Source: an uncultured Flavobacteriaceae bacterium
Lineage (GTDB): Bacteria; Bacteroidota; Bacteroidia; Flavobacteriales; Flavobacteriaceae
Length of the DNA stretch: 64,000 bases
Direction of reading: 5' to 3'
Assembly: GCA_947500385.1 (NCBI GenBank)
Contig: CANMSA010000010.1
Location: 62,001 to 126,000 of the forward strand
In this document: one piece after another, positions 40,282 to 63,580 of the stretch
Position numbering within the stretch: the stretch's first letter is position 1
Layout of the letters: every line of letters starts with the position of its first letter
Notes under the pieces: generated by a model
Seen by the model: only the letters and a program-made list of their open reading frames with translations
Databases searched by the model: none
What the model was told of the DNA's origin: nothing
Translations under genes and position numbers: made by a program

Positions 40282-40354
<73 letters not shown>

Positions 40355-40360
40355 CTAGTA

Positions 40361-40412
40361 TAACCCATTGATTGACAGTAAATTAAAACTGTTGCCAATG
40401 GGTTATTTTTTT
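40361..40412 (+). terminator. Terminator of the tRNA gene overlapping the integrase start
   Basis: A 10-bp stem (TAACCCATTG / CAATGGGTTA) encloses a second inner stem (ACAGT / ACTGT) and is followed by seven T. Both possible integrase ATGs (40368 and 40398) lie in this hairpin. It would end the tRNA transcript and limit read-through into the integrase. Confidence 0.75.
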
Positions 40413-44788: not shown

Positions 44789-45496
44789 TTATACTGCGTA
44801 AATAAATATAAAACTAGCATTATCTTCAGCCTCCATTTTTAGTCTATCCCTAATTTTTTTTATTACTAGATCCGTTGATTTATTGTTCTTTAGCAAATAT
44901 TCGATGTTGTGGCTATCTATAATATTGTGCAGTCCATCCGAGCAGATTATTAGCTTATCTGTCTTACCATTCAATTCTAATTCTTGATAAGAGACGTAAG
45001 ATTTCCTTAGGTTACCCTGAACAGATCGTGTTACTATGTGTGAATATTTGGATTTTATTTCGGAAATATTAGAGTTAGCATCATCTGAGGTCTCATTAAA
45101 TAAATTATGGGATTTACTTTCAAAATTCAATTTGCTATCTGAATACCTTAATATTTTTACATCACCAACCCAAAAACATCTAGCCAAATTATTTTCCACA
45201 ATGACACCCCCTATTGTCGCTCCCAGCCTAGACCGATTCAGTTCTTGAAATTGTCGTATTGCAAGATTTGCCTTGTTGACCGCTTTCTGAATACTTTCTT
45301 CATTAATTTCTCTAACGGTAGACAAAAATGTTGAAATGCTATCTACTGTCATCGAAGCCGCAAGTCTTCCATTATCGTAACCCCCCATTCCATCTGCTAT
45401 TATGTAGAGATCTGTTCCAGCACTAAGACTACTCTCCCAAATCACATCTTGATTTGTTTTTCTTTTTCCTTTATATGAAGATGTAATAGATTTCAT
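44789..45496 (-). CDS. PP2C family serine/threonine phosphatase
   Basis: 235 residues, a compact PP2C. Metal-binding motifs: KTNQDVIWES (about residue 14), ADGMGGYDNGRLAAS (about residue 34), IICSDGLHNI and the terminal EDNASFIFIYAV. It dephosphorylates Ser/Thr with Mn or Mg. Its stop-start overlap with the preceding 1813-residue ATPase is one base, so the two are translated together. The obvious partner is the double kinase three genes upstream, giving a phosphorylation/dephosphorylation switch; that is inference. Confidence 0.9.
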   Translation of the reverse strand: MKSITSSYKGKRKTNQDVIWESSLSAGTDLYIIADGMGGYDNGRLAASMTVDSISTFLSTVREINEESIQKAVNKANLAIRQFQELNRSRLGATIGGVIVENNLARCFWVGDVKILRYSDSKLNFESKSHNLFNETSDDANSNISEIKSKYSHIVTRSVQGNLRKSYVSYQELELNGKTDKLIICSDGLHNIIDSHNIEYLLKNNKSTDLVIKKIRDRLKMEAEDNASFIFIYAV

Positions 45497-48400
45497 TAGT
45501 TACCTGTTGCCTGTATAGTGCCTCCTCCATGCTTAGTTACCCTTGGTCTGGTAGAAACTTTTACAGGTTTAACTGAAACACTTTTTTCAGTTGCTTTGGT
45601 CGCCCATAAAAATCCTTCCCCTGGGGTCAAAGCGCTCATGTCCGCAGGAGTTAGAGTAGAAAGTTGTGTTATTGACTTTTGAATATGTTTAAGCCACTGT
45701 GGACTATTAAACTTGTGTAGTAGTACAACAGAACTCAATTCAATAATTTCATTTGGAAGACTAGGTGGGTCTTGACTTGCAATCATTATACTTACCCCTT
45801 TATGTCTCATTTCTCTTATGGCGGTAACAATATTTCCAGTTAAATCTTTGTTATCCATATACTTATGAGCCTCATCGAATACAATGAATTTGTTAAAATG
45901 CAATCCGTTAATATTCTTTACCGCAGAGAAAATATTAAGCATTATGACAAAAAGACCCAAGGCTTCATCTTTTACAATAAATTCATCTCTTAAATCAACA
46001 ACTACCAATCTTCCTGGCATTAACACATCTCTCATCATAAAGCTGTCATCAATATATTCACGAGCAAAGCTTAGTTTCTGCCTTGCTAATGCTTTTTGAG
46101 AGTTGCTCAATAGTTCAGATTCTTCGACACTCTCCGAAAGAGCGTTTATTGTAATATTAGATCGATGCTGTTTCATTATTGCCTTTAGCTGTCTTATATA
46201 GGTGGAGTCATTACCTATTGCTCCTAAAATAAACAACCAATCTTGCACATTCAGTTCCTTAGAATTAAAAGCTATTGGCAATACCTTAATAGAAGGATAT
46301 TCGGCTTGCCTTTCTTCAATTTTATCTTTTGGTGTGAGAATAATAACATCCTCAATATTATCTGGTTCAGCTCCATAGCGTACTTTCAATTTTTCTAATT
46401 CCCGATTTTCATCATTAGCGTGTATCATTGAGGTAAACTCAGGCGCATAATCCATACTTTCACTATAGTGAAAAATAACCCCTGCTAATGGTGCTGGAAG
46501 TAGATTGATATTGCTAAATTGCTTAAGAACCATTTCGGATATGGTTCCAATAGTATAACTTTTACCGCCGCCTTGAACTCCAAATAGACTAATGGTGTTC
46601 GTCTCGCTAAGGTCAATAGCGATTTTTTTCTGTAAAGTACTTTCCCCAAGAATTCCAAATTGATCGCTTGGTGATGTTTTACCAATAAGTATATCAAATT
46701 CAGGACAGATATGTTCATTATGATTTGACATGACTTCAATAGAATCATCTTTTGTGTCTAATTCTATTTCTGTCTCGGTCGCCTTAAGGGTACCTTCTCG
46801 ATTTGTCGGATATACCGTTTGCTTAGTCGGTGGACTTATTGCAAGGTTATCGAGTTGAGAATCTACTTCTGTTAAATTATCGACCTCATCGTCTCCGCTA
46901 GAATCGGATGTGCTTTCGCTAGGTTCTAATTTTGATTTGAATCTTTGAATAAAAGGTTTGAGTTCACTGATATTTCCAAAGGCTTTTATAAGGTCTTTGT
47001 CAAAATCACTTTCTTCAAGTCTCTTAGTATTTAAATCTGAATAAGGGTCAAGAATATCATCAATCAATTTTCCTCCGAAAGTAAAAAAGGTGGACTCATT
47101 ATCTAAAATTACCTTTTTATGTCTTTCTGTAGCCGCAAAATCAAAAATCAAACCTAGTTTTCTAAAGTGAAGACTAAACCCCGAATCAAGTTTTTGCAGA
47201 AAAGCTAAATATTGATTGTAAGCTTTATTGGATAGATACTCATATCTATGTGCTCTTTCCAAATAAAAGGTCAATAGTGATTTTAGTTCTTTGTTTTTTA
47301 TTTCTCTATCTAGTCTATCAAAAGAATGATTATATGAGGGGTCAAAATGGTTCCTCAAGGCTTCTATCGTATTATCTATCTGATCGAGCATTTTTAATCT
47401 AAGAGCATCTTTTTCATTTTCTCCTAGGGCTTTACGGCATTTTATTTCAATTACCGAGATTAATATTTCTTTTCTATTTGGATCGATTGAAACAAGCAAG
47501 TTATCTGCTCTTGATTTACTTCCAGAAGGTAGATTCTCAAATAGGTTTTGATGCAAATCAATCGGAATCAGAAAAGCATCTTCTAACATTTCCTTTTTTT
47601 CCAACACACGCTTGGTAAACGCAGAACCAATTACCTCAAACGCCTTGTTTTTCGAAGAATTCAATTGAAGCACCAATGAACTACTAACTGCTCTTAAATC
47701 TTCAAGAAGAATTTTTATTTTATGCTCGTCCTCTTCATTATGAACATCAAGGTTGAATTCTTCAAAGTGAGGCCCTAGTAGCCCTAATACTTCTGAAGTA
47801 GGCCTTGTTGTGAGATATGATGAAATTCCCAAAGCCTCTTCTCCAGGAACATAGTCTAGTAAAAATGGGATTTTACCATCCTTAGATGGTTGATCAAATA
47901 TTTGTGGCCCTAAATTTTTGTCAAACGTTATTACCCAATCGGAATAATCGTGTAAGTGGGTAAGTAGCACCTTGTCCTTATCATTTAACCTAAGTTGCGT
48001 AGAAGGTACGGATGAAGTGTGTTTTGACACTAAAGCTCCGCTTACAAAACTTTGGAGGTTCTCAAAAAGCTTGATGCCGTTTGCACCTGCAGTATCATAT
48101 TTTACTGGTAGTTTATTCCCTTGAATGAAACGATTCCACTTAATCTGACATCCATTTTCATCTACCTTTACCGTAGACTCTGTAATTAAACCATTCAAAT
48201 AAAAATTGCGCTCTTCTATAGTTGGTTTTATAAGTTCGATAGTTATCGGAAATGGACTGACTAAAAAGCTCAAATGAGAGGTATAAGTTGAGGGGTCTAT
48301 TAAGAAGTCTGAAATATCGTTGATTGAAAAACGTAATTTTGGAAACAATCTATTCTTAGAAGGTTGAGAAAATGCTTCTGCTTCCTCGGAGATATTTGAT

Positions 48401-50937
48401 TCTGGGTTGATTAAAGTCTTTAAAGCTTCTCCATGTTCAATTATTTTGTCATCACCTTTAAAAATTCGGATCTCGTAATTGATACTCTCAAATGATTTTT
48501 CCTTTTCTAACTCGACAAATGCATTAGCAAAAACCTCCGCGTCGCCCGCGTTGAATAAATTAACTACTAATTTATCTATATATGGATGTTGCGCTAGATA
48601 ATTCTTAATATGTCGAATTACCAATTTGATACTTAAATCAGTTTCTACATAGTTGTCCTTAGTGATATTAAATAGCAATCTTAAATAATGCTGAAGCTGT
48701 CTAGAAATAGAAGTCATTCCATTTTTAGATTCTTGGGATACTGTACTCAAGTAAAGCCCCCATCCAAATGAAAGCTCGCCACTATAATTAAATTGTTTTT
48801 GAGATATTGTCTCAATTAGAACTTGTTGATTATTTTCAGGAGAGAGTTGACCAATAAACAATTCTTCTAAATGTTGCGACCAAGATTCTTTGTGCCCTGA
48901 AAACTCTTTTGTTCTTTGTTCCCAATTCTCAAAAACTTCTAAAAGTTGTAAAGTCCAACACAAGCGTAATGGATGCAAAGGTGATAGGAGTATTGCCTCG
49001 ACTTTACTTCCGTCAGGTAATTTACTTTTGACCTTAACAAGGTCAATCATTTGTAATTCAATTAGAAACTCTCTAAGTTTTGTTTTTTCATCTAGCGTTA
49101 TTTCATCCGTCACCAACTGGTTATTTAGTTTTGTTGTCCATTTAGTATATGTATTAACATATTTTCTGATGTTCTCTTTGAGATTAAATATATCTGCCGT
49201 TTCAAAAATTCCATTAGCCTTTGTATTTGAATTAATAATAGCTTCAAAAAGCTGTAATCTTGACTTTAGCAATGATTTTGGTACAATTTCACTTAGTTCG
49301 CTTTTTACAAATTGTAATTGTTCAAAACCTATTGCTAGCTTATTGCCTTTTAATCGACATCTTACATAGCCTAAGCTATCAGCATTTGCGAGAAATTTAT
49401 TTTCTATTTGACGCAGTTTAGTCGAGATGTTGATCTGATAATTGTGTTGGTCAGAATAATTGATGTGAAATGTAGAGTTATGTTTTTCCTTTCCGTCATT
49501 AATCCAAATATTTGATGTTTCCGAAGGTTTTGGTAATTCAATTTCAATATCACTCTTTAATGCTTCAATGCGATATTTGAAATACGCTTGTAAAACATTA
49601 TTAAGTTTATCCTTTCGCTGATTTTCATCGCGTTCTAAAGATTCCTCAATTACATAGTCAAAATCAATCGAATCACAGCTGAGCTTATAAGGAAAGGTAC
49701 TTTTTGGTGTACTTTCATCTTCTTTCTTAGCCTCCTCCCAAGCTTTTTGAATTTTAGATTCACGAAACTCATCATTGGCATTTAACATATTACCGTGTTC
49801 GTCCTCCGCTAAAACCTTTATAAAATAAGAGCCTTCCTCAATGATATTCGGGTTCAACTCAAGAGTGGCATCCCTATAGGGTCTATTAGAATTTGAGTTT
49901 TTGATTTTTCTTAAAACGGTAATTTCTTCTCCGTTACTTCCATTTACAGCCATCAGTATAATCCTGAAGAATCGTAAATCCTTTATATCCTTTGGATTTG
50001 GATTGGTGTGAAAACGAACTTTCAACTTCGCTACATTACTCTCTTGCGCATAAAGCACATTAGTTCCATCTTCTACTTTTAAATCTTTAGACTTAATCTC
50101 ATCAGTTATTAATTTAATATGCGTAAAATCTAAATCAGGAATGGGCCAATAGCTGAAATTTAATTCATCATATCCATTTTTTATAGCACTACAAATCTCT
50201 TGGGCATTTCTTGCTCCTTTTTCAATTTTGAGAAAATTGACAATATCCTTTTGTATAGAATCATTTTCTAACCTTAGTTCGGCTATTCTATCATATAGTG
50301 GTTTATTGAAAGCTGATAATAACTCAACACTTTCTCTATTGAAATTTAATCTTGACCTGATTTTTTCAACATGTTTTGAAAGAGTCTCATCAGGTATTAG
50401 AGAGAGTTTAAAGAGACAATTTCCAATTGCCGAAGGCTCGTAACTCTCTTGATTAATGGCTATTAAGTAGTCTATTACTTCCGTATTTGAGGGGTTTAAA
50501 TAATCTATTATATCATTAACTACAGTATCATAAACATCATCAGGAACTTGTTCTATTAGAGCATTAACCAATTCTTCTTCCATACCTTCTAGAGATATCT
50601 CTTTAAAGGTTGCGTTACCATAGGAATCTTCCGCAGCTGTGCGGCTATTCGACGGTATCAAGATCAATAGAGCTTTATCCTGCTTATTTCGAAGCTCGAT
50701 GAGTTTTGTCGCAGAAATAAATTTGTGACTTGTATTCTCCGCTTCGGAAACAATATAAATGTCGAGATGTGAATGTTTCTCCTTTAGCAAATCCCATAAA
50801 TATTCCAATTCTAATATACCTAGCCCCGTAATTTTCATACAATGACCTGGACCTGCCGTTTCAAAGTCAGTATTGTGCAATCGAAGAATAAGACCTATTA
50901 TCTTTTGATAGTATATATTAATCGTAATTGATTCCAT
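45496..50937 (-). CDS. Large HerA-type ATPase with embedded PD-(D/E)XK-like motif (MADS ATP-binding protein-like)
   Basis: 1813 residues. The first 1100 residues are mostly unrecognised. A PD-(D/E)XK-like stretch occurs at about 1140-1170: SRADNLLVSIDPNRKEILIS then VIEIKCRKAL, giving Asp and an ExK. The C-terminal 380 residues are HerA/FtsK-like: Walker A FGVQGGGKSYTIG (about 1454), Walker B FIVFDEAHKYMD (about 1690), then SIMIASQDPPSLP and LLHKFNSPQWLKHI. HerA ATPases form hexameric DNA pumps and often pair with nucleases in defence. Last large gene in the operon, 7 bases after the 517-residue gene. Comparison to MADS is by layout and order. Confidence 0.8.
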   Translation of the reverse strand: MESITINIYYQKIIGLILRLHNTDFETAGPGHCMKITGLGILELEYLWDLLKEKHSHLDIYIVSEAENTSHKFISATKLIELRNKQDKALLILIPSNSRTAAEDSYGNATFKEISLEGMEEELVNALIEQVPDDVYDTVVNDIIDYLNPSNTEVIDYLIAINQESYEPSAIGNCLFKLSLIPDETLSKHVEKIRSRLNFNRESVELLSAFNKPLYDRIAELRLENDSIQKDIVNFLKIEKGARNAQEICSAIKNGYDELNFSYWPIPDLDFTHIKLITDEIKSKDLKVEDGTNVLYAQESNVAKLKVRFHTNPNPKDIKDLRFFRIILMAVNGSNGEEITVLRKIKNSNSNRPYRDATLELNPNIIEEGSYFIKVLAEDEHGNMLNANDEFRESKIQKAWEEAKKEDESTPKSTFPYKLSCDSIDFDYVIEESLERDENQRKDKLNNVLQAYFKYRIEALKSDIEIELPKPSETSNIWINDGKEKHNSTFHINYSDQHNYQINISTKLRQIENKFLANADSLGYVRCRLKGNKLAIGFEQLQFVKSELSEIVPKSLLKSRLQLFEAIINSNTKANGIFETADIFNLKENIRKYVNTYTKWTTKLNNQLVTDEITLDEKTKLREFLIELQMIDLVKVKSKLPDGSKVEAILLSPLHPLRLCWTLQLLEVFENWEQRTKEFSGHKESWSQHLEELFIGQLSPENNQQVLIETISQKQFNYSGELSFGWGLYLSTVSQESKNGMTSISRQLQHYLRLLFNITKDNYVETDLSIKLVIRHIKNYLAQHPYIDKLVVNLFNAGDAEVFANAFVELEKEKSFESINYEIRIFKGDDKIIEHGEALKTLINPESNISEEAEAFSQPSKNRLFPKLRFSINDISDFLIDPSTYTSHLSFLVSPFPITIELIKPTIEERNFYLNGLITESTVKVDENGCQIKWNRFIQGNKLPVKYDTAGANGIKLFENLQSFVSGALVSKHTSSVPSTQLRLNDKDKVLLTHLHDYSDWVITFDKNLGPQIFDQPSKDGKIPFLLDYVPGEEALGISSYLTTRPTSEVLGLLGPHFEEFNLDVHNEEDEHKIKILLEDLRAVSSSLVLQLNSSKNKAFEVIGSAFTKRVLEKKEMLEDAFLIPIDLHQNLFENLPSGSKSRADNLLVSIDPNRKEILISVIEIKCRKALGENEKDALRLKMLDQIDNTIEALRNHFDPSYNHSFDRLDREIKNKELKSLLTFYLERAHRYEYLSNKAYNQYLAFLQKLDSGFSLHFRKLGLIFDFAATERHKKVILDNESTFFTFGGKLIDDILDPYSDLNTKRLEESDFDKDLIKAFGNISELKPFIQRFKSKLEPSESTSDSSGDDEVDNLTEVDSQLDNLAISPPTKQTVYPTNREGTLKATETEIELDTKDDSIEVMSNHNEHICPEFDILIGKTSPSDQFGILGESTLQKKIAIDLSETNTISLFGVQGGGKSYTIGTISEMVLKQFSNINLLPAPLAGVIFHYSESMDYAPEFTSMIHANDENRELEKLKVRYGAEPDNIEDVIILTPKDKIEERQAEYPSIKVLPIAFNSKELNVQDWLFILGAIGNDSTYIRQLKAIMKQHRSNITINALSESVEESELLSNSQKALARQKLSFAREYIDDSFMMRDVLMPGRLVVVDLRDEFIVKDEALGLFVIMLNIFSAVKNINGLHFNKFIVFDEAHKYMDNKDLTGNIVTAIREMRHKGVSIMIASQDPPSLPNEIIELSSVVLLHKFNSPQWLKHIQKSITQLSTLTPADMSALTPGEGFLWATKATEKSVSVKPVKVSTRPRVTKHGGGTIQATGN

Positions 50938-50944
50938 TCTTTTC

Positions 50945-52498
50945 TTAATCGTTTAATTCGTATCGTGGACGTATTCTCTGCAAAATGTAGGCATCACTTA
51001 AATCATTATAAAAGCCTATTTGGCGTAGTTTCATTTTAAACGATTCTACATTTTCTTTAAAAGCTAAATGGGTATTCAAATCTGCGTCCGCAAATCTTTC
51101 TTCAGACAAGCCATTGATAATTAATCCATAGCGTGTTCTTATATTTTCTATCAACTCCTCTATAGAAAGGGTTTTTGTTGCGAAATGATCATCTTCAACA
51201 TTAAGTACTAATATTTGAACTAGTGTTTCCAATAATCGAGTACCTAAGACAAAACGCCGTGGATGCCTTTTACTTCGTCCTTGAGCCATAAAGCCCCGTT
51301 CCGAATTCTTTTGTGAGAGATTATCAATAAGTTGTATATGATATCTATATTGATACGCTCCACGCGCTTTCACTATTAATTCGATATACTTATCGAAATA
51401 AGAATCTTCATACTTTACCATATCTTTAATTAATTCCCGATCATCCTCTTCAAGTGAATTGTAGAGATTATCCCATTGAGTCTCAAAATATATTTCAAAA
51501 CCTATAGGCTTTTCTGCTAGAATCTTAAGAGCTTTTTCTAGATTTAGTGAATTTGTTTTCTCCAACTTTAATCTTCTCAAAGCTGCGTTTATTTGATAGG
51601 TAGCCTTGACATAATCATATATGCTGTTAGTTAAGCTCTCAGCGTCATAGCTCGCAAGTTTTGCAATTTTACTTTCAAAATCATCCGTTGCGTCTACCAC
51701 AATACTCCAATCATCACTATGACGAATAGAACCTTTTTCTACCATCTCAGGCAAAAGAAAAAATAGCTTTTGTATATAAATTGATAAATGAAATGAAGTT
51801 ATAGTCTTCAAATAATCTACCACAACGTTTCTCGGAATTTTTCTTTTATAAACCAGTAAACGCCTCACATCGTCACAATAAAGTTTGGCTTGTTCTTCTA
51901 GTAATGGCTTGATTTGATTTAAAGAACTATTAGTATCTAAAAAACCTGGTTTAATATTTTTAATAATATGAAGTAGTCCCAGACTGTCAACATCTAGACC
52001 AGTGCTAATATTAATTTTATTAGCTGTGTTATCCCAACCTTCCATTAGAAAACTTTTAAGCTCTTCTTTAACGTTGGGATTGGCGCCAAGCATTAAATAT
52101 ACTTGATCTGCGGTGTTGTAATCTCTTGTATGGGATGCATTTCGAACCCGATAACTTTCAAGGTGGATTGGTCTAAGAGATGATATTTTCTCCTTATCCA
52201 AATTGCCTCTATAAACCATATTTACGAGATTACTTCGCATCCAAAGCTCAGCGGCTTCCTTGTTCTTATTGAATCCTTTTACAGACCCATCTTCTTCTAA
52301 CTTTCCAAAAACTCTCTGTAAAGTATCCAAATCAATAAAAGAATTACTTCTTGCTCGTTGTCTAGGTCTAATACCGTTGTGCTTTAAAAGCATAAACAAG
52401 TTCACGAACACATTATCTATGTTTACAGCTTTTGCATCTCCTGCATATATGAGTTCATTCCTTAAGACGCTCTCTTCTTTATTTAGTTTTATCGCCAT
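50945..52498 (-). CDS. Unknown 517-residue component of the MADS-like operon
   Basis: 517 residues, mostly helical, soluble, no signal. N terminus IKLNKEESVLRNELIYAGDA, then NLVNMVYRGNLDKEKISSLRP and HLESYRVRNASHTRDYNT, and the C-terminal SDAYILQRIRPRYELND. I recognise no nuclease, ATPase or methyltransferase motif. Its position between the kinase and the HerA ATPase corresponds, as I recall it, to MAD7 of the methylation-associated defence system. Its start lies 2 bases after the kinase stop, so it is strictly cotranscribed. Confidence 0.75.
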   Translation of the reverse strand: MAIKLNKEESVLRNELIYAGDAKAVNIDNVFVNLFMLLKHNGIRPRQRARSNSFIDLDTLQRVFGKLEEDGSVKGFNKNKEAAELWMRSNLVNMVYRGNLDKEKISSLRPIHLESYRVRNASHTRDYNTADQVYLMLGANPNVKEELKSFLMEGWDNTANKINISTGLDVDSLGLLHIIKNIKPGFLDTNSSLNQIKPLLEEQAKLYCDDVRRLLVYKRKIPRNVVVDYLKTITSFHLSIYIQKLFFLLPEMVEKGSIRHSDDWSIVVDATDDFESKIAKLASYDAESLTNSIYDYVKATYQINAALRRLKLEKTNSLNLEKALKILAEKPIGFEIYFETQWDNLYNSLEEDDRELIKDMVKYEDSYFDKYIELIVKARGAYQYRYHIQLIDNLSQKNSERGFMAQGRSKRHPRRFVLGTRLLETLVQILVLNVEDDHFATKTLSIEELIENIRTRYGLIINGLSEERFADADLNTHLAFKENVESFKMKLRQIGFYNDLSDAYILQRIRPRYELND

Positions 52499-52500
52499 AA

Positions 52501-55500: not shown

Positions 55501-57237
55501 CTCGGTTGTGGTGTAGAATTGCCCATAACGGGTTTGTCCGTTCCATACAAATTTCACAATATTAGGATGGTCTAATTCCGCTAATGCTTTGTATTCATCT
55601 ATTACAGAAGCAACACTTACACTTTCATGAAATAGTTTTAAGGCAAAATCACGCCCTTGCAAATCATGTTTCGCTTTGAAAACACGGGAATACCCCCCAC
55701 GCCCTAAAATCTTATGAATAATATAGTCATCTACACGATCTCCTTCCTTTAAATCGTATGTATCCGGTTGGTCATTTACTATGGGAGTATTTGTTGTCTT
55801 TGTAGGTTCTTTGCTAGAGAACTCAACTTTTAAAGCTTCTTCGATATTAGTTTCTAATTCTTCTGTACTATCTATACGCTTATCACTATCGGTCAAGATG
55901 GTTTTTAAACAGATATCATCTAGCCATTTTGGCAACGAACTATTCTCGGCAGACGGTAATCTATCCAGTGGTAGTTGCCCTCCTAGTTTATCAAGTTCAA
56001 AAGGATTTTTTATGGGTTCTTTTCCTGTAAACAACCAAGCAATTAATACCCCTAACGAATAAATATCCGAAGCTCTAGATGCATCTTTAGCAATCAGTTC
56101 TAAAGGATGATACGGTGTAGCATTCGATTCATTAATTGTGGGCATCACTGTGTAGCCATGGTCATTATGATCTGTGAAGTAAGACTTCCCAAAGTTTCCC
56201 AAATAAGCATATCCATTACTTAAAAAGATATTATCAGGATTGATGTCCCTATGGAAGATATTCTCTTTATGGGCTGATTTTAAAGCACTCATCACATTCT
56301 TTAAAATACTTACACGTTCATCAAAAGTGAATGTTTTATTTCTTGATGCTGAACGTAAAGAATCATCTTCCATCAAATCTGTAATTTCATAGAAAAGATG
56401 ATTTTCTTCATCCAGTTTGAACTCGACAGGAAGAATGAACGGATTTGAACGGATTTTTATAAGTGCATTATATTGATTTAAGATACTTTCTTCCCGCTTT
56501 AGCAGTTCTAAAGGTGATAAACCTACCACCTGTAGTGAATACTCCTTGACCCGTTTACGTATGTTTGAGGTTACATTTTTGGGCTTTACCAGATATTCTA
56601 CATAGTTATCCGATTCTTGTTTTAAGATTTCTACGATCTCGTAGCCTTGTACTTCTTTCTTTTCATTAGGAGCTTTTTTATTTTGCTCTCCTATTAAGAA
56701 TTGAACAATATCATTTTGAATATCAGCGATAGCTGCTTCCCATTTACCAATTTGTTCGGGATTTTTAATATAATCAACTAGTTCGTCGGTAAGTATGAAA
56801 GATAGCTTACCCGCTTCCTGTCTAAGGTTTGGAATGAATGAATTGGGATAGGAAAGCGTTACCATATTCTGGATCCAAGCCTTTCCCCAATCTCTATTGG
56901 CCTCCTTAAGTTTTGAGGCTAGTATAGCTGTTTTTTGACGACCAGTTTTGAGCGGATTGGGCTTTTGTCTGTCATTGATGTACCAGTAATCATCCGCACC
57001 TTCAATTCGGCCTTTCCAATCTTTATTTTCTATATTGTAAATAGCATGAGGAGCAACAACAATCAAATCATATTCCCAAAATTGAGTTCTATTGTTTCGA
57101 GGGTTCGTAGAAGCAATCTCTACATTTGGTATCAAGAAATAGTTGTCGGGGAGTTTTATCTGTAAAAAATCTAGCAAACGCTTCTCCCCTGCATTTACTA
57201 CTGTTTCAAAATAGGGTGGTTTAATTATTTTTGCCAT
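52501..57237 (-). CDS. NERD-double kinase-P-loop multidomain protein (PglW/MADS kinase-like)
   Basis: 1578 residues. N-terminal NERD domain (about 10-200) with WEYDLIVVAPHAIYNIENKDW, a PD-(D/E)XK-type D...ExK. First kinase-like lobe about 230-480: FHRDINPDNIFL at about 329, and LGNFGKSYF in the DFG position (NFG). Second kinase about 505-770: GRGGYSRVFKAKHD, Lys in FALKLFHE, LHRDVKPQNIIW, LIDFNVASL (DFN for DFG), APDLV. A STAND/AAA-like P-loop follows, ITGNAGDGKTAFIRK (about 949), then a Cys cluster CEGCSLANKC (about 1105). The NERD-kinase pair is the PglW design of BREX type 2 and of MADS kinases. The gene overlaps the specificity gene by 13 bases. Confidence 0.85.
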   Translation of the reverse strand: MAKIIKPPYFETVVNAGEKRLLDFLQIKLPDNYFLIPNVEIASTNPRNNRTQFWEYDLIVVAPHAIYNIENKDWKGRIEGADDYWYINDRQKPNPLKTGRQKTAILASKLKEANRDWGKAWIQNMVTLSYPNSFIPNLRQEAGKLSFILTDELVDYIKNPEQIGKWEAAIADIQNDIVQFLIGEQNKKAPNEKKEVQGYEIVEILKQESDNYVEYLVKPKNVTSNIRKRVKEYSLQVVGLSPLELLKREESILNQYNALIKIRSNPFILPVEFKLDEENHLFYEITDLMEDDSLRSASRNKTFTFDERVSILKNVMSALKSAHKENIFHRDINPDNIFLSNGYAYLGNFGKSYFTDHNDHGYTVMPTINESNATPYHPLELIAKDASRASDIYSLGVLIAWLFTGKEPIKNPFELDKLGGQLPLDRLPSAENSSLPKWLDDICLKTILTDSDKRIDSTEELETNIEEALKVEFSSKEPTKTTNTPIVNDQPDTYDLKEGDRVDDYIIHKILGRGGYSRVFKAKHDLQGRDFALKLFHESVSVASVIDEYKALAELDHPNIVKFVWNGQTRYGQFYTTTEFLDGDNLSTYTKTDANLPIGTVYKLAEDMLSALSYLQSREKPILHRDVKPQNIIWDNEGRFVLIDFNVASLKEDDKAYVGTNPYLAPDLVDGHHINWDLSADTFALGITLYELVTKKYPWPQGRIPKISIKPENPKTINQRISVEFSEFLLKSIGTKSSERFSSAQEMLNRLREIGIENLLSENKEKADSVVLDQKEYHTEVSIRQGSTVIVLLNEMSNYGQLRKTIYSSLNKFKEKINGYKTSISLKEKLKVVIKVDNEVLINETFWQGGARNFNDGNILKVYDALKNSFKENTNRLKEHKIDVEGIDMVDYINSLYSQSKSGNWGTRVNDRGSQYDEATYSPSKLDRKLIPDILDAQFKLIIITGNAGDGKTAFIRKIEDAASVKKLNRFEHKNGAEFEVNGIPFESNYDGSQDEDGKVNNEVLESFFHCFEGLKNFNEASEGRIIAINEGRLVEFLKTSKKYKSLHDTINQYFYKEGHFDLLPGLMIINLNLRSITAIDDDEPSLFRQQIKALTNKSLWTKCEGCSLANKCFIKYNVDSLNDPASGNEVITRLEWLLRTVGLKRELHITMRDLRSYIAFMITRDHSCEEVDDAYNRTLNKPEEYWQLYYFNITNPDYEDSGENDRLVKLLRETDVGSVAIPNLDRDLFFGQHLARHYLEFVDREFHLLDDFNANKIWVPAHEQDNKVLDKIKSIQKSFVRHQYYEGRVGNYKKRLPYQSLQNFYKALNVEKENSVSDVKIRYITNDEQSKNKQFKFDEEDFADNSSFTKACLKQIKPLVQEEGKGIKQLSIINQATEFMEVISLDSYKGCSWTDFKRATNTLTIKNALPRLYEQLTEDSLLRLKMSISRAISMNEGCENEAIWQKNLVLTSSEINDPFSKSFRIFDLNDFELFVSRTDHLVKYLEYEPDSLVFRHKQESHIELVISLDLFEMLYFIQQGYSPSLNDIRGKFVELTIFKNLLENLTYNKVIVTRDNLEFYEISKDIKNHLSIKTMQL

Positions 57238-58628
57238 TGTTCTATTTCTTTTTCCACTAATGCTATTGCCTCGTCTTCCTTCAACAAAGCTTGATATAAC
57301 ATAGTATGGGCTTTTTTTACTGACTCATCTATTTCATTCATGACAGCACTGTCTAGAATAGGCACTGGAATATCCTTGAGTAGCGCAGGAATTGGCCTAC
57401 AAAGTTTAGTACCTGTTTGTGTTGATCTAATCATTCGAAATCCATAGTCAGATGAAAGCCAGCTAAATAAATATCCCGATGGAATTTCATCGTTTGTTCT
57501 CATGCGAATGAACTCACCTGCAACTAATTGCCCATCTAATTCTTCGTTTGCAAAAATCACCCTACAAAAGGTTTCCCCCTCTCCCAAAGTTCCAACACCA
57601 GCAACTAAAATTTCTCCATAACGCACAAAATTTTCAGTACTTACATATCTTCTAGATATCAATTTTCCTGTTTTTCTGAAATTGAATATATCAGACTGAT
57701 TTAACAGTTTAATGGACTTATTAGAATTAATTGCAACTCTTTTAAAAGAGCCTGTAGTAAAAAACTTATTACTGTCAAGGCAGTTAACCAACTCTGAATG
57801 GTGATTCATTTTTACAGCATTGATAACCTCTTCAATTCTTTTTGAATAATTAAAGGCGTTTATTGAAATGCTAGTGATTTGTGAAATGTTCCTGGTAAAA
57901 GTAGATACAGCTCTATCGGAAGAATGATGCCCGAAGTATTCAAAGTTTTCTTTTTTGAGAAGCTTTAAGCCTGTGGAATTTTTAAGTGAATTTTGAGCGT
58001 CAGTTAATAATATATTTCCTTCTACCCTTAATTTTGATGATTTAACAATTAAATTGTGAATCTTTTCAGTCAATTTAGTCGAAAAAACCGGCACCAATGT
58101 TTTTCTTATTCCCGGAGCCTCTATATAACGGACAACTGAACCGGAGGCATTTTTATTAAGTTGAGATTTTCCGTATTTAGAGGTTAAAAATGCATACACA
58201 AAACCATAAAAAGATTTTGATGACACATCTACTCTACAAACATTATTCGCATAACAAATACCAGCACTAATCTCATTTACTAATCTTGTGTTACCAATTG
58301 TCCCAAATCCTGTTACTAGAATCTGTCTATCCTTTACAATAGCCTTAACTTTCAAAGCTTGTTCCTTATTTATATAGACATTATTACCTTCTAATGTGTT
58401 AGGGATATCGCTACTTTGACAATATTGTATTGCTTTTCCAGTATTTTCACAGAACTGTCTCTTGAAAATAGGAGGATTCCAAACTTCAGCTAGCTTCTTA
58501 AGTTGAACACACTTGTCACTATTTTCTTCTAACAATCTACTATTTATGGCATCTTTATTTAAAAAATAACCACTATTCAGCCTATTAGACTCATGAATCA
58601 ATTGACTTTTGACGGAAGATGTAATCAT
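57225..58628 (-). CDS. HsdS-like DNA specificity protein (MADS specificity subunit-like)
   Basis: 467 residues with two target-recognition half-repeats separated by conserved helices. Repeat one contains QYCQSSDIPNTLEGNNV, ILVTGFGTIGNTRLV, FVYAFLTSKYGKSQL and IEAPGIRKTLVPVF; repeat two LLNQSDIFNFRKTGKLI, ILVAGVGTLGEGET, GYLFSWLSSDYGFRMI and IPALLKDIPVPILD. These are type I S-subunit-like features. It should direct the methyltransferase (and probably restriction) to a bipartite DNA target. It starts 3 bases after the methyltransferase stop and overlaps the kinase start. Confidence 0.9.
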   Translation of the reverse strand: MITSSVKSQLIHESNRLNSGYFLNKDAINSRLLEENSDKCVQLKKLAEVWNPPIFKRQFCENTGKAIQYCQSSDIPNTLEGNNVYINKEQALKVKAIVKDRQILVTGFGTIGNTRLVNEISAGICYANNVCRVDVSSKSFYGFVYAFLTSKYGKSQLNKNASGSVVRYIEAPGIRKTLVPVFSTKLTEKIHNLIVKSSKLRVEGNILLTDAQNSLKNSTGLKLLKKENFEYFGHHSSDRAVSTFTRNISQITSISINAFNYSKRIEEVINAVKMNHHSELVNCLDSNKFFTTGSFKRVAINSNKSIKLLNQSDIFNFRKTGKLISRRYVSTENFVRYGEILVAGVGTLGEGETFCRVIFANEELDGQLVAGEFIRMRTNDEIPSGYLFSWLSSDYGFRMIRSTQTGTKLCRPIPALLKDIPVPILDSAVMNEIDESVKKAHTMLYQALLKEDEAIALVEKEIEQWQK

Positions 58629-58631
58629 AAA

Positions 58632-60647
58632 TTATCTATTTAAAAAATCACGATAAGCGATGAGAATTCCTTTAAGGTCATCATCAATTAGCTTGACCTT
58701 CTCCTTTCTAATTTTAAGGATTTTTTCTCCGTTTTTCTTTTTCGTCAAATATTTAGTTTCGGTATTAAAGATTAATTCAGCTCCATCTTCATCTTTTAAA
58801 TATATTGGACTACCTCTACGATCTTTACCCAATTTTTCTGCAATTGCCATAAAAATGTGATAATCTTCTCCTTTTCCCTGTGCCAATTGCCTCTGCGCTT
58901 CAGTTTTCTTCTCAAGGAATAAAAGTGAAGATTGGACTCCAACCTGTGGCAAAAAGGCTTCTACTGGAAGATCGATTGATGCAAGAATTTTAAAACGATC
59001 TAAAACCCACTCACGCACACCTTGCATGTTGGGATTTCCCAAAATACCATCGGGCAATACTATTCCCACTTTCCCGCCTTCTTTCAAAAAATCGTGACAA
59101 GCTTCTATGAATAAAACTTCAGGAGCAGTACTAAATTTATTCAATTCAAAACGTGAGGCAATTTCTGTCTCGACTTTTACTTTAGCTCCAAAAGGTGGGT
59201 TACTAAATATCAAATCAAATTTTCCTCTAGCATCATCATATTTAGGATTTTCAATATCACCCAATATTTGTAGACTATTATCAATAGCTTCTTTTATCTT
59301 TTCCGTTTCCCTTGGATGGTCCCATAAAGGATATTCAAGTGAGTTGACATGGAAGATATTGGCGTGACCATCCCCACCCATCACCATGTTCATGCGTGCA
59401 GCTTTTTTAAGATCGGGGTCGAAATCAAAACCAAAAATACTACGCTCCGCATAGGTTCGAACACGCTCATTAACTTCAACAGAATTGTATTTTTCCTCTA
59501 GTAAAGGCCCCTCAAGTTCTGGATACATACATTTTGTAATCTGCTGGCGTACATGGTCAAGAATCATTACTAGAAACCCCCCAGAGCCACAAGCAGGATC
59601 CAATACACGGTGGTGTTCTTTTGGATCAAGCATTTCTACCATAAATTTCACGATGTTGCGTGGTGTGAAGAATTGCCCTGCCTCTTGTTTCAGTGTATTA
59701 CTCACGATGGTTTCATAGGCTAGACCTTTTACATCTACAGAAGCATCTAGGAAAGAATATTTTGAAAGTTCTCCTGCAATAAAGGCGAGTCCTTTATCTG
59801 TGAGGTCGATGCTTTCGTTTCCTTGGAATACTTCCGAAAACAAATTATCGTTTTTAAGTTCTTCAAAAAGACCCTTAACTCTTTTGGCCACAGCTTTGCG
59901 ACCCCCGTCAGTGTTTTGTTCTTTGACCCCTACCCAAAATTTACGACGGTAGCTTTCGCCGTTTGGCAACTCCATAAATCTCCGTTTCTCATCGTAGATT
60001 TTGCAGAAAATAAGATTGAGCAATTGCCAGAAGGCATCTTTTTTTCGACCTTCATTGCCATAGATATAATCATGAGAGCGTTTAAAGACTTTTATCAAGG
60101 AGTCGTTCGCTGGTGTACGTGTATGGGAGCGGTCTGCACGATCTAAATCTTCCAAAGTTTCTCCTTCTCCCGGAAAGTCTGATAAATCTGTAAATTCAAA
60201 ATCGAAGCCAATTCCATCTTCCTCTTTTTGAAGAAAATGATAGCTAGAACCATTTGCCCAAAGACCAAATTCACAATTATTGACTGCACCCATCGCATTC
60301 TCCAAAGTAGCAGCAAGACCTTTTTTCTTATCGGTTTCCTTAACCTTATCATCTTGTACTATGCACATACGAATAATAAAATCTTGTTCGTGTGGTTTAT
60401 TTTTCTCAAAAATGGTTAAATCTACCTTTTGTTTTTTAGTTCGACCAGTATCTGGATCTTCGTATTCAATGGTAAAATTACGCGCCATATTATCAAGGTC
60501 GAATCCATATTCTTCATTTAGCATTAAGATTACAGATTGCAGATTGGTCTCTTGCGCCTTTATTTTCTTTACCTCTCCTGTAAGTATGCATACGAGTTCA
60601 TTATCTTCTAATACTACTTCTTCTTTACTTTTTATAGCTGTGGCCAT
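58632..60647 (-). CDS. Type I-like N6-adenine DNA methyltransferase
   Basis: 671 residues, longer than a standard HsdM (about 500-550). The N-terminal 300 residues are extra (LVCILTGEVKKIKAQET, then KKGLAATLENAMGAVNNCEF). N6-MTase motifs: GQFFTPRNIVKFM (about residue 325), SAM motif VLDPACGSGGFLVMIL (about 350), catalytic NPPF in LIFSNPPFGAKVKVE (about 490), and KVGIVLPDGILGNPNM. It probably modifies adenine at the site picked by the adjacent S-like protein. There is no HsdR gene, so it is not a plain type I system; MADS methyltransferases have this arrangement. Confidence 0.92.
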   Translation of the reverse strand: MATAIKSKEEVVLEDNELVCILTGEVKKIKAQETNLQSVILMLNEEYGFDLDNMARNFTIEYEDPDTGRTKKQKVDLTIFEKNKPHEQDFIIRMCIVQDDKVKETDKKKGLAATLENAMGAVNNCEFGLWANGSSYHFLQKEEDGIGFDFEFTDLSDFPGEGETLEDLDRADRSHTRTPANDSLIKVFKRSHDYIYGNEGRKKDAFWQLLNLIFCKIYDEKRRFMELPNGESYRRKFWVGVKEQNTDGGRKAVAKRVKGLFEELKNDNLFSEVFQGNESIDLTDKGLAFIAGELSKYSFLDASVDVKGLAYETIVSNTLKQEAGQFFTPRNIVKFMVEMLDPKEHHRVLDPACGSGGFLVMILDHVRQQITKCMYPELEGPLLEEKYNSVEVNERVRTYAERSIFGFDFDPDLKKAARMNMVMGGDGHANIFHVNSLEYPLWDHPRETEKIKEAIDNSLQILGDIENPKYDDARGKFDLIFSNPPFGAKVKVETEIASRFELNKFSTAPEVLFIEACHDFLKEGGKVGIVLPDGILGNPNMQGVREWVLDRFKILASIDLPVEAFLPQVGVQSSLLFLEKKTEAQRQLAQGKGEDYHIFMAIAEKLGKDRRGSPIYLKDEDGAELIFNTETKYLTKKKNGEKILKIRKEKVKLIDDDLKGILIAYRDFLNR

Positions 60648-60664
60648 ATAAATAATGATTGTGT

Positions 60665-61510
60665 TTAGTTAAGTTGGTTGATTATATTTTCTATACTATT
60701 TAGTACCTCTTCAAACGAGAATGCCTTGTGCGTTTCTATGATCTGATTGATAAGTTTACTGTCTTCCTTTTTATTGTTTTCAGTAGTTAATATTTCAACT
60801 ATGGAAGCTTTGGTTTTTTGATGGGTTTTGAGCAATTCATTGATATCCTTTCCTAAGAGAGTTGCCCCGCCCGTAGTTGTTGAAAAAGGTTCAACTCCAT
60901 AAATTTCATCATAGTGTTCCATCGCAGCTCGTTCTGAATTGATATTGAGATAGTTTTCTAATATGAATCCCATGTCATCAGCGTCCTTGTTGTTTTTATG
61001 ATTTCGGTCTTTCCATGCGGCTATTTTCAATAAAAAAATACCACTAAGGGTGGCAATTTTGATATCAGTCTTGTCATCGATGCTAACAGATAAAGCTGCT
61101 TCATCGGCAGCTGAAAATCCTAAGACAGACATTGCAAACTCTTCTTCGGGTGGCCAGAATATCCTACTATCCTGTTGCATTATTTCTCCGAAAGGCACAA
61201 TATCCAATTGAAACTTACCCTTGTAGATAAAGCGTTGTTTTTGGTTCTCGTCCTTGGTAAAATTTTCAAGACGTATAATTTCCTCTTCAACCTTTTTCCA
61301 TTGTTCCCAATCATTGACCGTAATCGCAATATCAAGATCATGTGTTAAGCGTCCAGATTTTTCATTATGCAATTCCATAATGATATCCCTGGCTGTAGCA
61401 CCTATAACGAAAAAGGAAATTCCCGCTTCTTTAAAGTATTCTGTAAGCTCCACTAAAATGGGCTTTAATAGCGGATGAGTAAATCGACTACTAGATATGT
61501 TGTAACTCAT
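60665..61510 (-). CDS. Nucleotidyltransferase, AbiEii-like
   Basis: 281 residues. The nucleotidyltransferase core is at the N terminus: FFVIGATARDIIM (GxTARD-like), then LTHDLDIAITVNDWEQW (D-x-D active site), and LDIVPFGEI. AbiEii-type toxins have this fold and transfer nucleotides to tRNA or other targets. It overlaps the upstream HTH gene by 20 bases, the usual arrangement for an AbiEi-AbiEii pair. Its stop lies 17 bases before the methyltransferase start. Either it is a type IV toxin of this pair or an integral part of the defence operon. Confidence 0.8.
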   Translation of the reverse strand: MSYNISSSRFTHPLLKPILVELTEYFKEAGISFFVIGATARDIIMELHNEKSGRLTHDLDIAITVNDWEQWKKVEEEIIRLENFTKDENQKQRFIYKGKFQLDIVPFGEIMQQDSRIFWPPEEEFAMSVLGFSAADEAALSVSIDDKTDIKIATLSGIFLLKIAAWKDRNHKNNKDADDMGFILENYLNINSERAAMEHYDEIYGVEPFSTTTGGATLLGKDINELLKTHQKTKASIVEILTTENNKKEDSKLINQIIETHKAFSFEEVLNSIENIINQLN

Positions 61511-62492
61511 TCTCTAATATTTGTTTTGCCGTCTCTATGTTTCTACCGTAACCACTATTAATCAAATCAGTATAGATCAAAAGCGGAGGGGCTACTCTAG
61601 TTTCATCAAAATCATTCTTCCAAAATTTTTGTAGTACTTCAATTTCCCCAGTTTCACTTGGCACTAATCGAAATACTTTAGCCAATTCTGATAGCTCTAA
61701 GTCAGTAAAAAGAGTAAAGTGTTCTGGTCTTAGATTGTTGGTAAGAATTGCACCACCAGGTTCGCCACCCCAAAGAATTGTCCCAAGATTAGTATGCGTA
61801 TTTATATTTCGCCAATGTTGAACATAATCTGAATCCATAAAACGCATGCGTTTTCTTATAATTCGTGGTCTAAGCACTGAGTTGAACTCGACAAGCCAAC
61901 GCTCTAGGAGTTCCGTTGTGTTCTTAAGAACTCGTTTTTCATTAGTTTTTAAAAGGAAGTTTAAGTCTTCAAGCTCTGCCATAACATTACTTACTGAGCC
62001 GATAGAGACATCTGCCTTTTCTGCTATTTTCCTGTAAGAATCTTGAAGATGTTCAGGCTTAGACAAAAGATGAAAGAGAATCTTTAAACCAGCCTCTTGA
62101 AAAGCACGAGATTGATTTGTTTTTTCTCTTTTTGGTTTTTTCTGGCCTTCAATATATATTACTAAATCATCGTGTTTAATGAAGGCGTTGCCAGCTACAT
62201 CAATATAATTGATAAGACGCTCCTTCAATTCCTTTGCGGCCATTTTAGAAATATATTCAGCAATTAAAATAATAGGCCTACTGTTACTATTTTTCATCTC
62301 CTGTAGCTGAGATAGCACAAGACCTTGATTTGAAGTTCTAACAGCAGATTTTGCCTCAATGAGAAATTGCTCGTTTTTGATTCGCAGTAGAGCGTCATAA
62401 TTTTGACGACTACTATCTATCTCTATGGGAATGTTTACAAGCTGCTCAAGCTTAGAAGTAGCTTCATATATAAAGTCATTATTACGATACAT
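61491..62492 (-). CDS. AbiEi-like winged-HTH protein, first gene of the MADS-like operon
   Basis: 333 residues. The N-terminal 110 residues look like a restriction-type/NTD fold (FLIEAKSAVRTSNQGLVLSQ; EAK could be an ExK motif). A winged HTH follows at about 135-180 (AFQEAGLKILFHLLSKPEHL, IAEKADVSIGSVSNVMAELEDL). The C-terminal half contains WGGEPGGAIL, matching type IV AbiEi-like antitoxins. As I recall, MAD1 is an HTH protein that opens MADS loci. A symmetrical operator 11-63 bases upstream fits autorepression by this protein. Confidence 0.78.
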   Translation of the reverse strand: MYRNNDFIYEATSKLEQLVNIPIEIDSSRQNYDALLRIKNEQFLIEAKSAVRTSNQGLVLSQLQEMKNSNSRPIILIAEYISKMAAKELKERLINYIDVAGNAFIKHDDLVIYIEGQKKPKREKTNQSRAFQEAGLKILFHLLSKPEHLQDSYRKIAEKADVSIGSVSNVMAELEDLNFLLKTNEKRVLKNTTELLERWLVEFNSVLRPRIIRKRMRFMDSDYVQHWRNINTHTNLGTILWGGEPGGAILTNNLRPEHFTLFTDLELSELAKVFRLVPSETGEIEVLQKFWKNDFDETRVAPPLLIYTDLINSGYGRNIETAKQILENELQHI

Positions 62493-62502
62493 AGCTGTTT
62501 TT

Positions 62503-62555
62503 TGTTCATTATTTTTATTTGTTCAGCGTCAATGAACACTTAAATTTAGTGAACA
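62503..62555. promoter_or_regulatory. Symmetric four-site operator (TGTTCA / TGAACA) before the MADS-like operon
   Basis: Two direct TGTTCA sites (62503-62508, 62520-62525) are mirrored by two TGAACA sites (62533-62538, 62550-62555). The first and second start 17 bases apart, as do the third and fourth, and the middle pair is 7 bases apart. The whole is one palindrome centred at about 62529, 11 bases from the ATG of the HTH gene. It is very likely the operator of a dimeric regulator, best candidate the HTH protein itself. Confidence 0.75.
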
Positions 62556-62746
62556 TCATGTTAATTACAAAATATTCTTGTATAATATTAATGATGTATC
62601 GGACATTAAGCTTTCTTGTCTTCAAACACTTTCAATACAATAAAGGTTTGAGGTGAATAGTTTAAGCTGATTCAAATTAAAAGGAAATGCTGATAATTTT
62701 AGAATTCCATAAGTTTTGAAGAAAACCGATTAGGTATACTGAAGTG
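62556..62746. other. Gap between operon promoter region and IS element
   Basis: AT-rich, no coding frame. It presumably carries the -33/-7 promoter of the MADS-like operon; I see no exact TAnnTTTG on the minus strand. Confidence 0.5.
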
Positions 62747-62775
62747 ATTTAGACTTTTTTTTAGATCGAAAGATA

Positions 62776-62818
62776 GGGCTACGGACATTTGTGTCGCTGA
62801 ACATAAATACCGTAGCCC
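62776..62818 (+). promoter_or_regulatory. Hairpin blocking the transposase start
   Basis: A 9-bp perfect inverted repeat (GGGCTACGG / CCGTAGCCC) with a 25-base loop ends exactly at the transposase ATG (62819). In transcripts entering from outside it would fold over the ribosome entry region, as known for several IS families. Confidence 0.6.
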
Positions 62819-63580
62819 ATGTACAAAGTACTTGACAAAGATACTATAGAAATGGAGATAGTCCCATACATACCGCTTCCCAAGCGGGGCTTTGCTCCAA
62901 GGGTACCTTTATCGGAAATCGTCAACGCGGTGCTCTACAAGATGAAGACCGGTGTCCAGTGGGAGTACTTGCCAGTCGCTGCGCTGCTCTCCGGGGACCC
63001 GCTGGGTTGGCAGGGCGTCTATTACCATTTCAGGAAATGGAGCCTGTCGGGGACCTTTTTCGAATGCTGGACGGGCATACTGGAAGAGTACCGGGACAGG
63101 CTCGACCTCTCCAGTGTCGACCTTGACGGGAGCCATACCCCTTGCAAACGGGGTGGCGAGGCCGTGGAATACCAAGGGCGCGAGAGGGCGAAGACCACCA
63201 AAGCACTCTACCTGACCGACCGCCAGGGGCTGCCCTTGGCCATGTCGCAACCCGTTGCGGGCAACCACAACAATCTCTACGACATCGAGGTGCAGTTCGA
63301 GGTGGTCACCGCCACGCTCGACCAAGCGGACATTGTGACGGACGGCCTGTTCCTGAACGCGGATGCAGGGTTCGATTCCAAGGATTTCAGGGCGGCATGT
63401 TCGGCAAAGAAGATCAATGCCAACATCTGTTTCAACAAGCGAAACGGGAGCGCGGACGATAGGGACGAATATTTCGACCAAGACCTTTACGATGAGAGAT
63501 ATGCCGTTGAAAGGACAAATGCGTGGATGGACAGCTTCCGGTCACTGCTCAATAGATTCGATACGACCATCGCAAGCTGA
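62819..63580 (+). pseudogene. IS5-family transposase with premature stop
   Basis: 253 codons to a TGA at 63578. Sequence matches IS5/IS427-like DDE transposases: LYKMKTGVQWEYLPV, VYYHFRKWSLSGTFFECW, first catalytic Asp in SVDLDGSHTPCKRGG, second near ADAGFDSKDFR, and Glu in ERYAVERTNAWMDSFRSLLNRFDTT. Beyond the stop the same frame continues KGFNYLSFIVLALRKFKMKK to a stop at 63649, and homologues have WKGFN here, so TGG became TGA. The enzyme has lost only its last 20 or so residues and could be partly active or dead. Confidence 0.8.

Follow-up and report, generated by a model that had tools for sequence, protein, structure and literature searches.

The DNA examined here, called the window, is a stretch of 64,000 nucleotides (nt) from an uncultured Flavobacteriaceae bacterium (assembly GCA_947500385.1, contig CANMSA010000010.1), and the run of genes on its minus strand at 44789–62492 raises the question of which defence system it encodes, by what machinery that system would restrict foreign DNA and how its expression would be controlled. 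The run consists of eight co-directional open reading frames (ORFs), all of them open, with gaps of no more than 17 bases and overlaps of no more than 20. An earlier note on this DNA had placed these genes and their strand correctly, though as seven genes plus one for a PP2C-type phosphatase; the latter belongs to the same run, which makes eight genes in one run. The likeness that it drew to the methylation-associated defence system (MADS) is borne out, as MAD2, MAD5, MAD6, MAD7 and MAD8 are contiguous and each scores above its curated NCBIfam cut-off. Judged on sequence, the operon is a genuine MADS operon, in a form that is widespread in Bacteroidota.

In the order of the genes, these proteins are a predicted N6-adenine DNA methyltransferase, MAD2 (58632–60647, 671 amino acids (aa); NCBIfam MADS2, 811.5 bits against a cut-off of 720, together with its motif columns), an S-like specificity subunit, MAD5 (57225–58628, 467 aa; MADS5, 484 bits against 400), MAD6 with a NERD domain, a pseudokinase, a kinase and a DptF-like P-loop part (52501–57237, 1578 aa; MADS6, 769.6 bits against 460), the DptG-like MAD7 (50945–52498, 517 aa; MADS7, 651.3 bits against 410) and the DptH-like MAD8 with a nuclease-type site and a HerA/FtsK-type ATPase (45496–50937, 1813 aa; MADS8, 227.7 bits against 175). 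The PADLOC models mad2, mad5, mad6, mad7 and mad8 also match the operon proteins, and the PglW and PglX-type models of bacteriophage exclusion (BREX), the other system against which the note had proposed a check, match below their cut-offs. A nucleotidyltransferase gene in front and the gene of the PP2C-type Ser/Thr phosphatase behind MAD8 (44789–45496, 235 aa; Pfam PP2C_2, 1.8e-12, 47.7 bits against 24) are indeed additional to the MADS genes, and the domain assignments of the operon proteins are upheld by Pfam and NCBIfam. The first gene, which the note took for MAD1, has no MAD1 match and instead encodes an AbiEi-type antitoxin paired with an AbiEii-type toxin. The proposed correspondence with MADS in order and content thus holds for MAD2-5-6-7-8, whereas MAD1, MAD3 and MAD4 are without an NCBIfam match among the eight proteins (MAD1 and MAD3 were not searched genome-wide; a search of the same genome for MAD4 gave no match, with its controls equally silent), and the operon, which to this extent departs from the eight-gene form, is filed as a MADS variant. 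As the note had stated, HsdR is absent from the run, with no match among the eight proteins in Pfam or NCBIfam.

The recurrence of this layout was followed by scanning one genome per species (84,980 species) with two peptide patterns, which returned 176 relatives. Only the 80 ranking highest by closeness to a mainly Bacteroidota query were retained, so that the counts describe that group, and 77 of the 80 are Bacteroidota by record title. Genes were labelled through BLAST matches against the proteins of the window and of plasmids. On these labels, 70 of the 80 loci have all five core genes in the order MAD2-5-6-7-8, 64 of them with PP2C in view, and in the remaining 10 the upstream genes (MAD2) are not visible. 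Such recurrence of the core order indicates that the layout does not arise by chance. PP2C lies behind MAD8 in 71 of the 80 loci, falls beyond the contig in 4 and is absent in 5 (L046, L068, L087, L100 and L105), so that the notion of an unusual variant in a marine bacteroidotan does not stand. MAD7 is nonetheless rare, being found in 1 of 198 relatives (the genome of the window itself) and in 6 of the 395 genomes searched within the phylum, where a single match exceeds the cut-off; homologues were not found in phage records or viral contigs. Matches to the Piscinibacter MAD3 and MAD4 are absent between MAD2 and MAD5 in all 70 loci with a visible MAD2, and in 10 of these loci the interval from MAD2 to MAD6 includes ORFs without a label, of which only four were scanned (one each in L090 and L092, two in L091). 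The slot before MAD2 is more variable, and holds AbiEi with AbiEii in 25 of the 80 loci, a DUF6577 gene in 21, AbiEi alone in 3, a small helix-turn-helix (HTH) gene in 6 and other genes in 11, with 14 not visible; the six loci of the small HTH class owe their label to similarity with a Cro/C1-type gene of Bacteroides finegoldii that itself lacks a MAD1 match. L064 has a DUF6577 gene and, behind it, an AbiEii-type gene (as scanned), and the second gene of L069 was called AbiEii-like, also on the tree, from its size and place. On a quick MAD7 tree, for which the program flags long branches, the regulator type requires 10 changes, the toxin 11 and PP2C 3, the last fitting a single gain at the root of the main group of Bacteroidota with losses in L046 and L068.

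Several of these loci deserve separate mention. Extra genes stand between MAD5 and MAD6 in some Bacteroidales (L090, L091 and L092), and encode a YhcG-type nuclease (DUF1016), a CpXC protein together with an unknown protein of 735 aa, or a Schlafen/AlbA protein. The MADS loci L028 and L029, each of 21.5 kb and from two Flagellimonas/Muricauda records that bear different names, agree at 21545 of 21551 bases, reflecting either a transfer in the very recent past or a single species named twice. In L046, a contig with the title Bacillus sp., a MADS operon without PP2C lies behind an integrase gene, with a MAD7 74% identical to that of the window, and represents cross-phylum transfer or contamination. 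Among the distant MADS-like loci L019–L022, one has the order MAD6-like, MAD7, MAD2, MAD5, MAD8, and others show no MAD2- or MAD5-like gene in the stretch fetched.

To address the restriction machinery, MAD6, MAD7 and MAD8 were compared in hhalign with DptF, DptG and DptH profiles built from six sets (L110, L115, L116, L117, L119 and L120; L118 was not used). The C-terminal half of MAD6 aligns with DptF (99.6%, 1.6e-23, 533 columns), MAD7 with DptG (94.5%, 7.5e-8, 326 columns) and MAD8 with DptH (99.6%, 3.4e-24, 1033 columns), and all six cross-pairs are negative at 5% or less (MAD6–DptH, 1.2%). These pairings relate the C-terminal half of MAD6, MAD7 and MAD8, at the level of profiles, to DptF, DptG and DptH in that gene order. 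Consistent with this, MAD7 matches SspG in PADLOC (9.1e-9), a comparison with a single DndF sequence gave 94.4%, the MAD6-like proteins of two members of the phylum match the curated DptF model directly, if below cut-off (1.9e-6 and 1.5e-5), and a Rhizobium plasmid carries a trio of NERD-kinase, MAD7-like and ATPase genes that links to both the MAD and the Dpt sides. In the MAD8–DptH alignment, D1145, E1164 and K1166 of MAD8 fall over the D, E and K of DptH, and this D…ExK nuclease-type site is invariant in 79 of 79 sequences, as are the Walker A GK and the entire VFDEAHKY box (residue counts here and below omit L019–L022, L029 and L084 as well as fragments below the length limits, L029 and L084 being apparent duplicates of L028 and L083). 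A structure model of MAD8 residues 850–1335 (mean predicted local distance difference test (pLDDT) 78, predicted template modelling score 0.82) places the three residues on a strand-strand-helix unit with pLDDT values of 85–94. A search of the PDB by sequence gave no match for MAD7 and weak HerA/TdpA matches only for MAD8. None of the DndABCDE modification genes is found among the eight proteins, and DptG relatives were absent from viral contigs.

The remaining domains of the operon proteins carry residue patterns that bear on their likely activity. In kinase 1 of MAD6 the HRD aspartate is kept in 70 of 77 sequences and asparagine replaces the DFG aspartate in 76 of 77; in kinase 2, K534, D626 and D644 are present in 77 of 77. 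The NERD domain retains D57 (77/77), E70 (76/77) and K72 (77/77), and the P-loop GNAGDGKT is invariant, as are D17, D35, D187 and D225 of PP2C in the 72 sequences aligned. The MAD6 of the window is about 200 aa longer than many others, with inserts at approximately residues 772–887 and 1317–1423. MAD2 contains an N-terminal HSDR_N-like stretch (R93 in 65/66) that was considered as the nuclease and rejected on account of its lost E-x-K. When the window is compared with its closest relatives, MAD2 and MAD6–8 show 86–97% identity, and the identity of MAD5 to that of the window is 28% in L026, 51% in L027 and 97% in L028; such divergence within otherwise near-identical operons is read as an exchange of DNA specificity.

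As to control, the head of the operon consists of an AbiEi-type antitoxin and presumed repressor (61491–62492, minus strand, 333 aa; Pfam AbiEi_2, 3.4e-21, 76.5 bits against a cut-off of 21), which also has a MarR-like HTH match below the Pfam cut-off, and an AbiEii-type nucleotidyltransferase and presumed toxin (60665–61510, minus strand, 281 aa; Pfam AbiEii, 8.1e-7, 29.6 bits against 22.5). The two genes are adjacent, overlapping by 20 nt, and with both products above Pfam cut-offs the pair of ‘HTH and nucleotidyltransferase’ genes is, on these matches, an AbiE type IV toxin-antitoxin cassette. The overlap recurs at 11–59 nt in all 24 two-gene loci (with mechanically assigned starts), a DUF6642 gene stands between the two genes in L072, and the junction of AbiEii with MAD2 ranges from an overlap of 37 nt to a gap of 40 nt in the 25 loci measured. 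G37, D58, D60, K162, D168 and D176 of AbiEii are present in 25 of 25 sequences aligned. Residues 33–48 of AbiEi form an N-terminal stretch resembling a PD-(D/E)xK core (D33 in 27/28, K48 in 26/28 and E46 in 19/28). At 62503–62555, 10 nt upstream of the first ATG, the minus strand carries an operator-like repeat, TGTTCA-N11-TGTTCA-N7-TGAACA-N11-TGAACA, for the comparison of which the upstream regions of 20 relatives were fetched. The repeat is present in all 27 AbiEi-type MADS loci tested (the window included, L072 not), with all 24 specified bases matched in 19 loci, one missed in 6 and two in 2, and the mean pairwise identity is 0.82 within it as against 0.29, 0.29 and 0.39 in three upstream windows. 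It was not found in 22 DUF6577 and 9 HTH-first-gene loci (0/31), where the best sites have 8–12 mismatches, about as in shuffled sequence; in L018, L044 and L096 the site is 1–2 mismatches better than the best of 60 shuffles, at still 8–9 of 24. Since the repeat precedes AbiEi, including the three loci without toxin (L040, L067 and L076), and none of the 31 other first genes, MADS seems to have come under the control of an AbiE antitoxin. In the 6.03-Mb genome this is the sole such place at three or fewer mismatches. A sigma-70-type promoter scan of 60500–62900 gave nothing above shuffles, an inverted repeat common to the set was not found upstream of the DUF6577 or small HTH genes, and a profile comparison of DUF6577 as a distant AbiEi was negative. 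In Streptococcus, AbiEi represses its own operon through inverted repeats (PMC7319586), and AbiE toxins are proposed to act on tRNA (PMC7725324); by analogy, the AbiEi_2-type antitoxin and the toxin found here may have the same repressing and tRNA-directed actions.

For methylation, cutting, phosphorylation, repression, DNA binding, toxicity and phage protection, and for the respective roles of nuclease and kinase, we infer the following scheme, which is the best explanation of the data and to which we assign a probability of roughly 0.72. MAD2 with MAD5 would methylate adenines at a sequence set by MAD5 and thereby mark self DNA. MAD6, MAD7 and MAD8 would form a complex of the DptF-DptG-DptH type (DndFGH type) that detects unmethylated DNA, with MAD8 supplying both the HerA/FtsK-type ATPase for movement along the DNA and the PD-(D/E)xK-type site for cutting it. 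The NERD domain of MAD6 and its second kinase, which looks active, would provide further effectors or switches, and PP2C would reverse the kinase to keep the system quiet. An AbiE cassette would have been captured at the head of the operon, such that AbiEi binds the four upstream half-sites and represses the whole operon, and AbiEii acts as a nucleotidyltransferase toxin once AbiEi is lost or MADS is countered. A bolder extension, which we offer tentatively and regard as possible at most, is that MADS as a whole is a DndFGH machine re-coupled from phosphorothioate to adenine methylation, with D1145, E1164 and K1166 of MAD8 as its long-missing nuclease, and that in part of the Bacteroidota one AbiEi-bound promoter would govern restriction together with an abortive toxin directed at tRNA; any phage able to knock out the antitoxin or host expression would then trigger both at once, with PP2C setting the threshold of the kinase.

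Several observations weigh against the scheme of DptFGH-type restriction under AbiE control. The generic type II methyltransferase and specificity models of PADLOC outscore mad2 and mad5 on MAD2 and MAD5. The link to DptFGH was found only by profile–profile comparison, with MAD7–DptG the weakest pair; comparison with a single DndG or DndH sequence failed, and the curated NCBIfam DptF, DptG and DptH models have no match to the window proteins, which were not reached either when the DptH and DptF models were run on the whole genome, so that the operon proteins are related to those families rather than members of them. Foldseek against the PDB returned nothing at E ≤0.001 for the middle part of MAD8 (best 0.11; restriction nucleases are among the top entries, at E 0.1 or worse) or for MAD7 (best 0.73, from a model with a pLDDT of 88). 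In 22 of 27 loci the repeat contains TAnnTTTG, the Bacteroidota -7 element, but the window is not among them and reads TAAATTTA at this place. Some MADS loci lack PP2C and some lack AbiE, and the repeat also precedes AbiE pairs for which the surrounding 1.5 kb in view holds no MADS gene: among five loci of AbiEi paralogues it is present in four, at 0, 2, 2 and 4 mismatches, and missing from the fifth (9 mismatches). The repeat was thus rejected as a mark specific to MADS and is instead a mark of AbiE, to which, as a whole cassette, MADS appears to have been joined.

Other readings of the same genes were weighed against this scheme. Were the kinase the effector, MAD6 would phosphorylate host or phage proteins and arrest infected cells, with PP2C as the antidote as in the kinase-kinase-phosphatase (KKP) module and the DptFGH-like parts only sensing DNA; the retention of the catalytic residues tested in kinase 2 and PP2C, the presence of PP2C in 71 of 80 loci and its single gain with two losses on the MAD7 tree all agree with this, yet the nuclease-type site and the DEAH-type box of MAD8 are kept in 79 of 79 sequences, and MADS loci without PP2C exist, so that the kinase is tolerated without that antidote, and we consider this reading unlikely. 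The AbiE pair might alternatively be an independent toxin-antitoxin system that stabilises the mobile element and lies upstream of MADS by position only, without a regulatory tie. AbiE pairs with a similar repeat do occur without adjacent MADS genes, and the regulator type switches about 10 times on the MAD7 tree; against this, the AbiEii–MAD2 junction (an overlap of 37 nt to a gap of 40 nt) leaves as a rule scant room for a separate promoter, DUF6577 genes, of unknown function, or small HTH genes occupy the same slot in 27 other loci, and L040, L067 and L076 keep AbiEi and the repeat without toxin before MAD2, which is unexpected of an addiction module and renders independence improbable. Least credible by far is an ordinary type I restriction-modification system with HsdR lost or separated and unrelated neighbours, to which the HsdM- and HsdS-like character of MAD2 and MAD5, and ResIII- and HSDR_N-type matches elsewhere in the genome, might point; such a system was rejected because MAD2 and MAD5 pass MADS-specific cut-offs and the MAD2-5-6-7-8 order is conserved in 70 of 80 loci. 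Neither an HsdR partner nor a kinase or ATPase unrelated to MADS, the outcomes that the note had named as contrary to its proposal, emerged from the searches.

The operon probably resides on a tRNA-inserted mobile element, as had been proposed. A tRNA-Met gene (40282–40355) is followed by a tyrosine-integrase-like gene (40368–41678, plus strand; Pfam Phage_integrase 22.2 bits against 27.1 and SAM-like 22.1 against 22.3, just below cut-off) and, on the minus strand, by a relaxase (MobA/VirD2-type) and MobC/NikA-like gene (41957–43323; Pfam 1.1e-36 and 1.5e-15, above cut-off). The presumed left attachment repeat (40286–40358, plus strand), comprising the tRNA-Met without its first 4 bases plus 3 nt, recurs exactly over 73 nt at 174911–174983 of the same contig (C10), 72.6 kb further on, and a 46-nt part of it is found on contig C18 (C18:37396). 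ARAGORN calls a tRNA-Met at the second copy too, which may therefore be another tRNA gene and not an attachment site. An integrase follows the C10 copy and another precedes the C18 copy (L122 and L123), and with each tRNA-Met copy next to its own integrase, this suggests several integrative elements stacked at one tRNA gene. All nine relatives of the same genus have the gene to the left of the tRNA (38779–40161, by eye presumably an amino-acid symporter), and eight of them also have an exact copy of the tRNA 3′ end beside it; the left end of this element is present in none, and in an empty-site check the sequences behind the second tRNA copy and the C18 copy were unmatched in the loci of these relatives. 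Beyond the operon head (62819–63580; L024:13177–19938) a gene for an IS4/5-type transposase is followed by one with a ThiF domain and one for a large helicase, apparently as the backbone of a mobile element.

The relation to DptFGH would name the likely restriction machine of MADS and one nuclease-type site to mutate, and thus renders its mechanism, which a 2026 review counts among those unknown (PMC12904381), directly testable. The AbiE head would couple abortive infection to restriction behind a single operator-like repeat that is conserved, and the slot in which AbiEi, DUF6577 and small HTH genes have repeatedly replaced one another amounts to a natural experiment on the control of costly defence operons.

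Set beside known systems, the operon shares MAD2, MAD5, MAD6, MAD7 and MAD8 in the same order with the canonical MADS of a Piscinibacter plasmid (L018), whose eight genes run from MAD1 to MAD8 (MAD1–5, 7 and 8 confirmed above NCBIfam cut-offs, its MAD6 not scanned), whereas the window is without MAD1, MAD3 (an AAA ATPase) and MAD4 and has AbiEi-AbiEii in front and PP2C at the end. In a plasmid of Bacteroides finegoldii, MAD2-5-6-7-8-PP2C stands behind a small HTH gene of the Cro/C1 type, and a Hymenobacter plasmid has DUF6577-MAD2-5-6-7-8 (MAD names by position and similarity). BREX was rejected as the identity of the operon, as MAD6 resembles PglW over residues 19–754 at 215.8 bits, far under the cut-off of 990, PglX-type models match MAD2 only far below cut-off, and neither PglZ nor PglY/BrxC has a match among the eight proteins. 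With AbiE type IV systems the window pair shares the AbiEi_2 and AbiEii domains, overlapping genes and upstream inverted repeats, but it is continuous with a six-gene defence operon behind it, and three loci keep antitoxin and repeat without toxin. The KKP module of Pf prophages likewise combines two kinase domains with a phosphatase for defence, whereas the kinases of the window are fused to NERD and P-loop parts, include a pseudokinase and have a methylation system beside them. In the DndFGH/DptFGH complex of phosphorothioate systems the H subunit combines an REase D…ExK site with a HerA/FtsK-type ATPase, and both residue sets occur in MAD8; the MADS trio differs in being paired with an N6-adenine methyltransferase and an S subunit. 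In PMC10853773, DndG is described as a triple winged helix, DndH as an REase plus HerA/FtsK protein, and DndF as fused to NERD and to inactive and active kinases, so that MAD6, a DptF-like subunit with NERD and two kinase domains, has the layout of fusions already known for DndF. The words MADS, HsdM, HsdS, phosphatase and toxin-antitoxin do not occur in the main text of that paper, and among the relevant-looking mentions of MADS in a literature search, the reach of which did not extend to the original MADS description, no link between MADS and DndFGH was found; what is new here is the relation to DptFGH, for which one nuclease-type site can be named, and the AbiE cassette together with the repeat conserved upstream of it.

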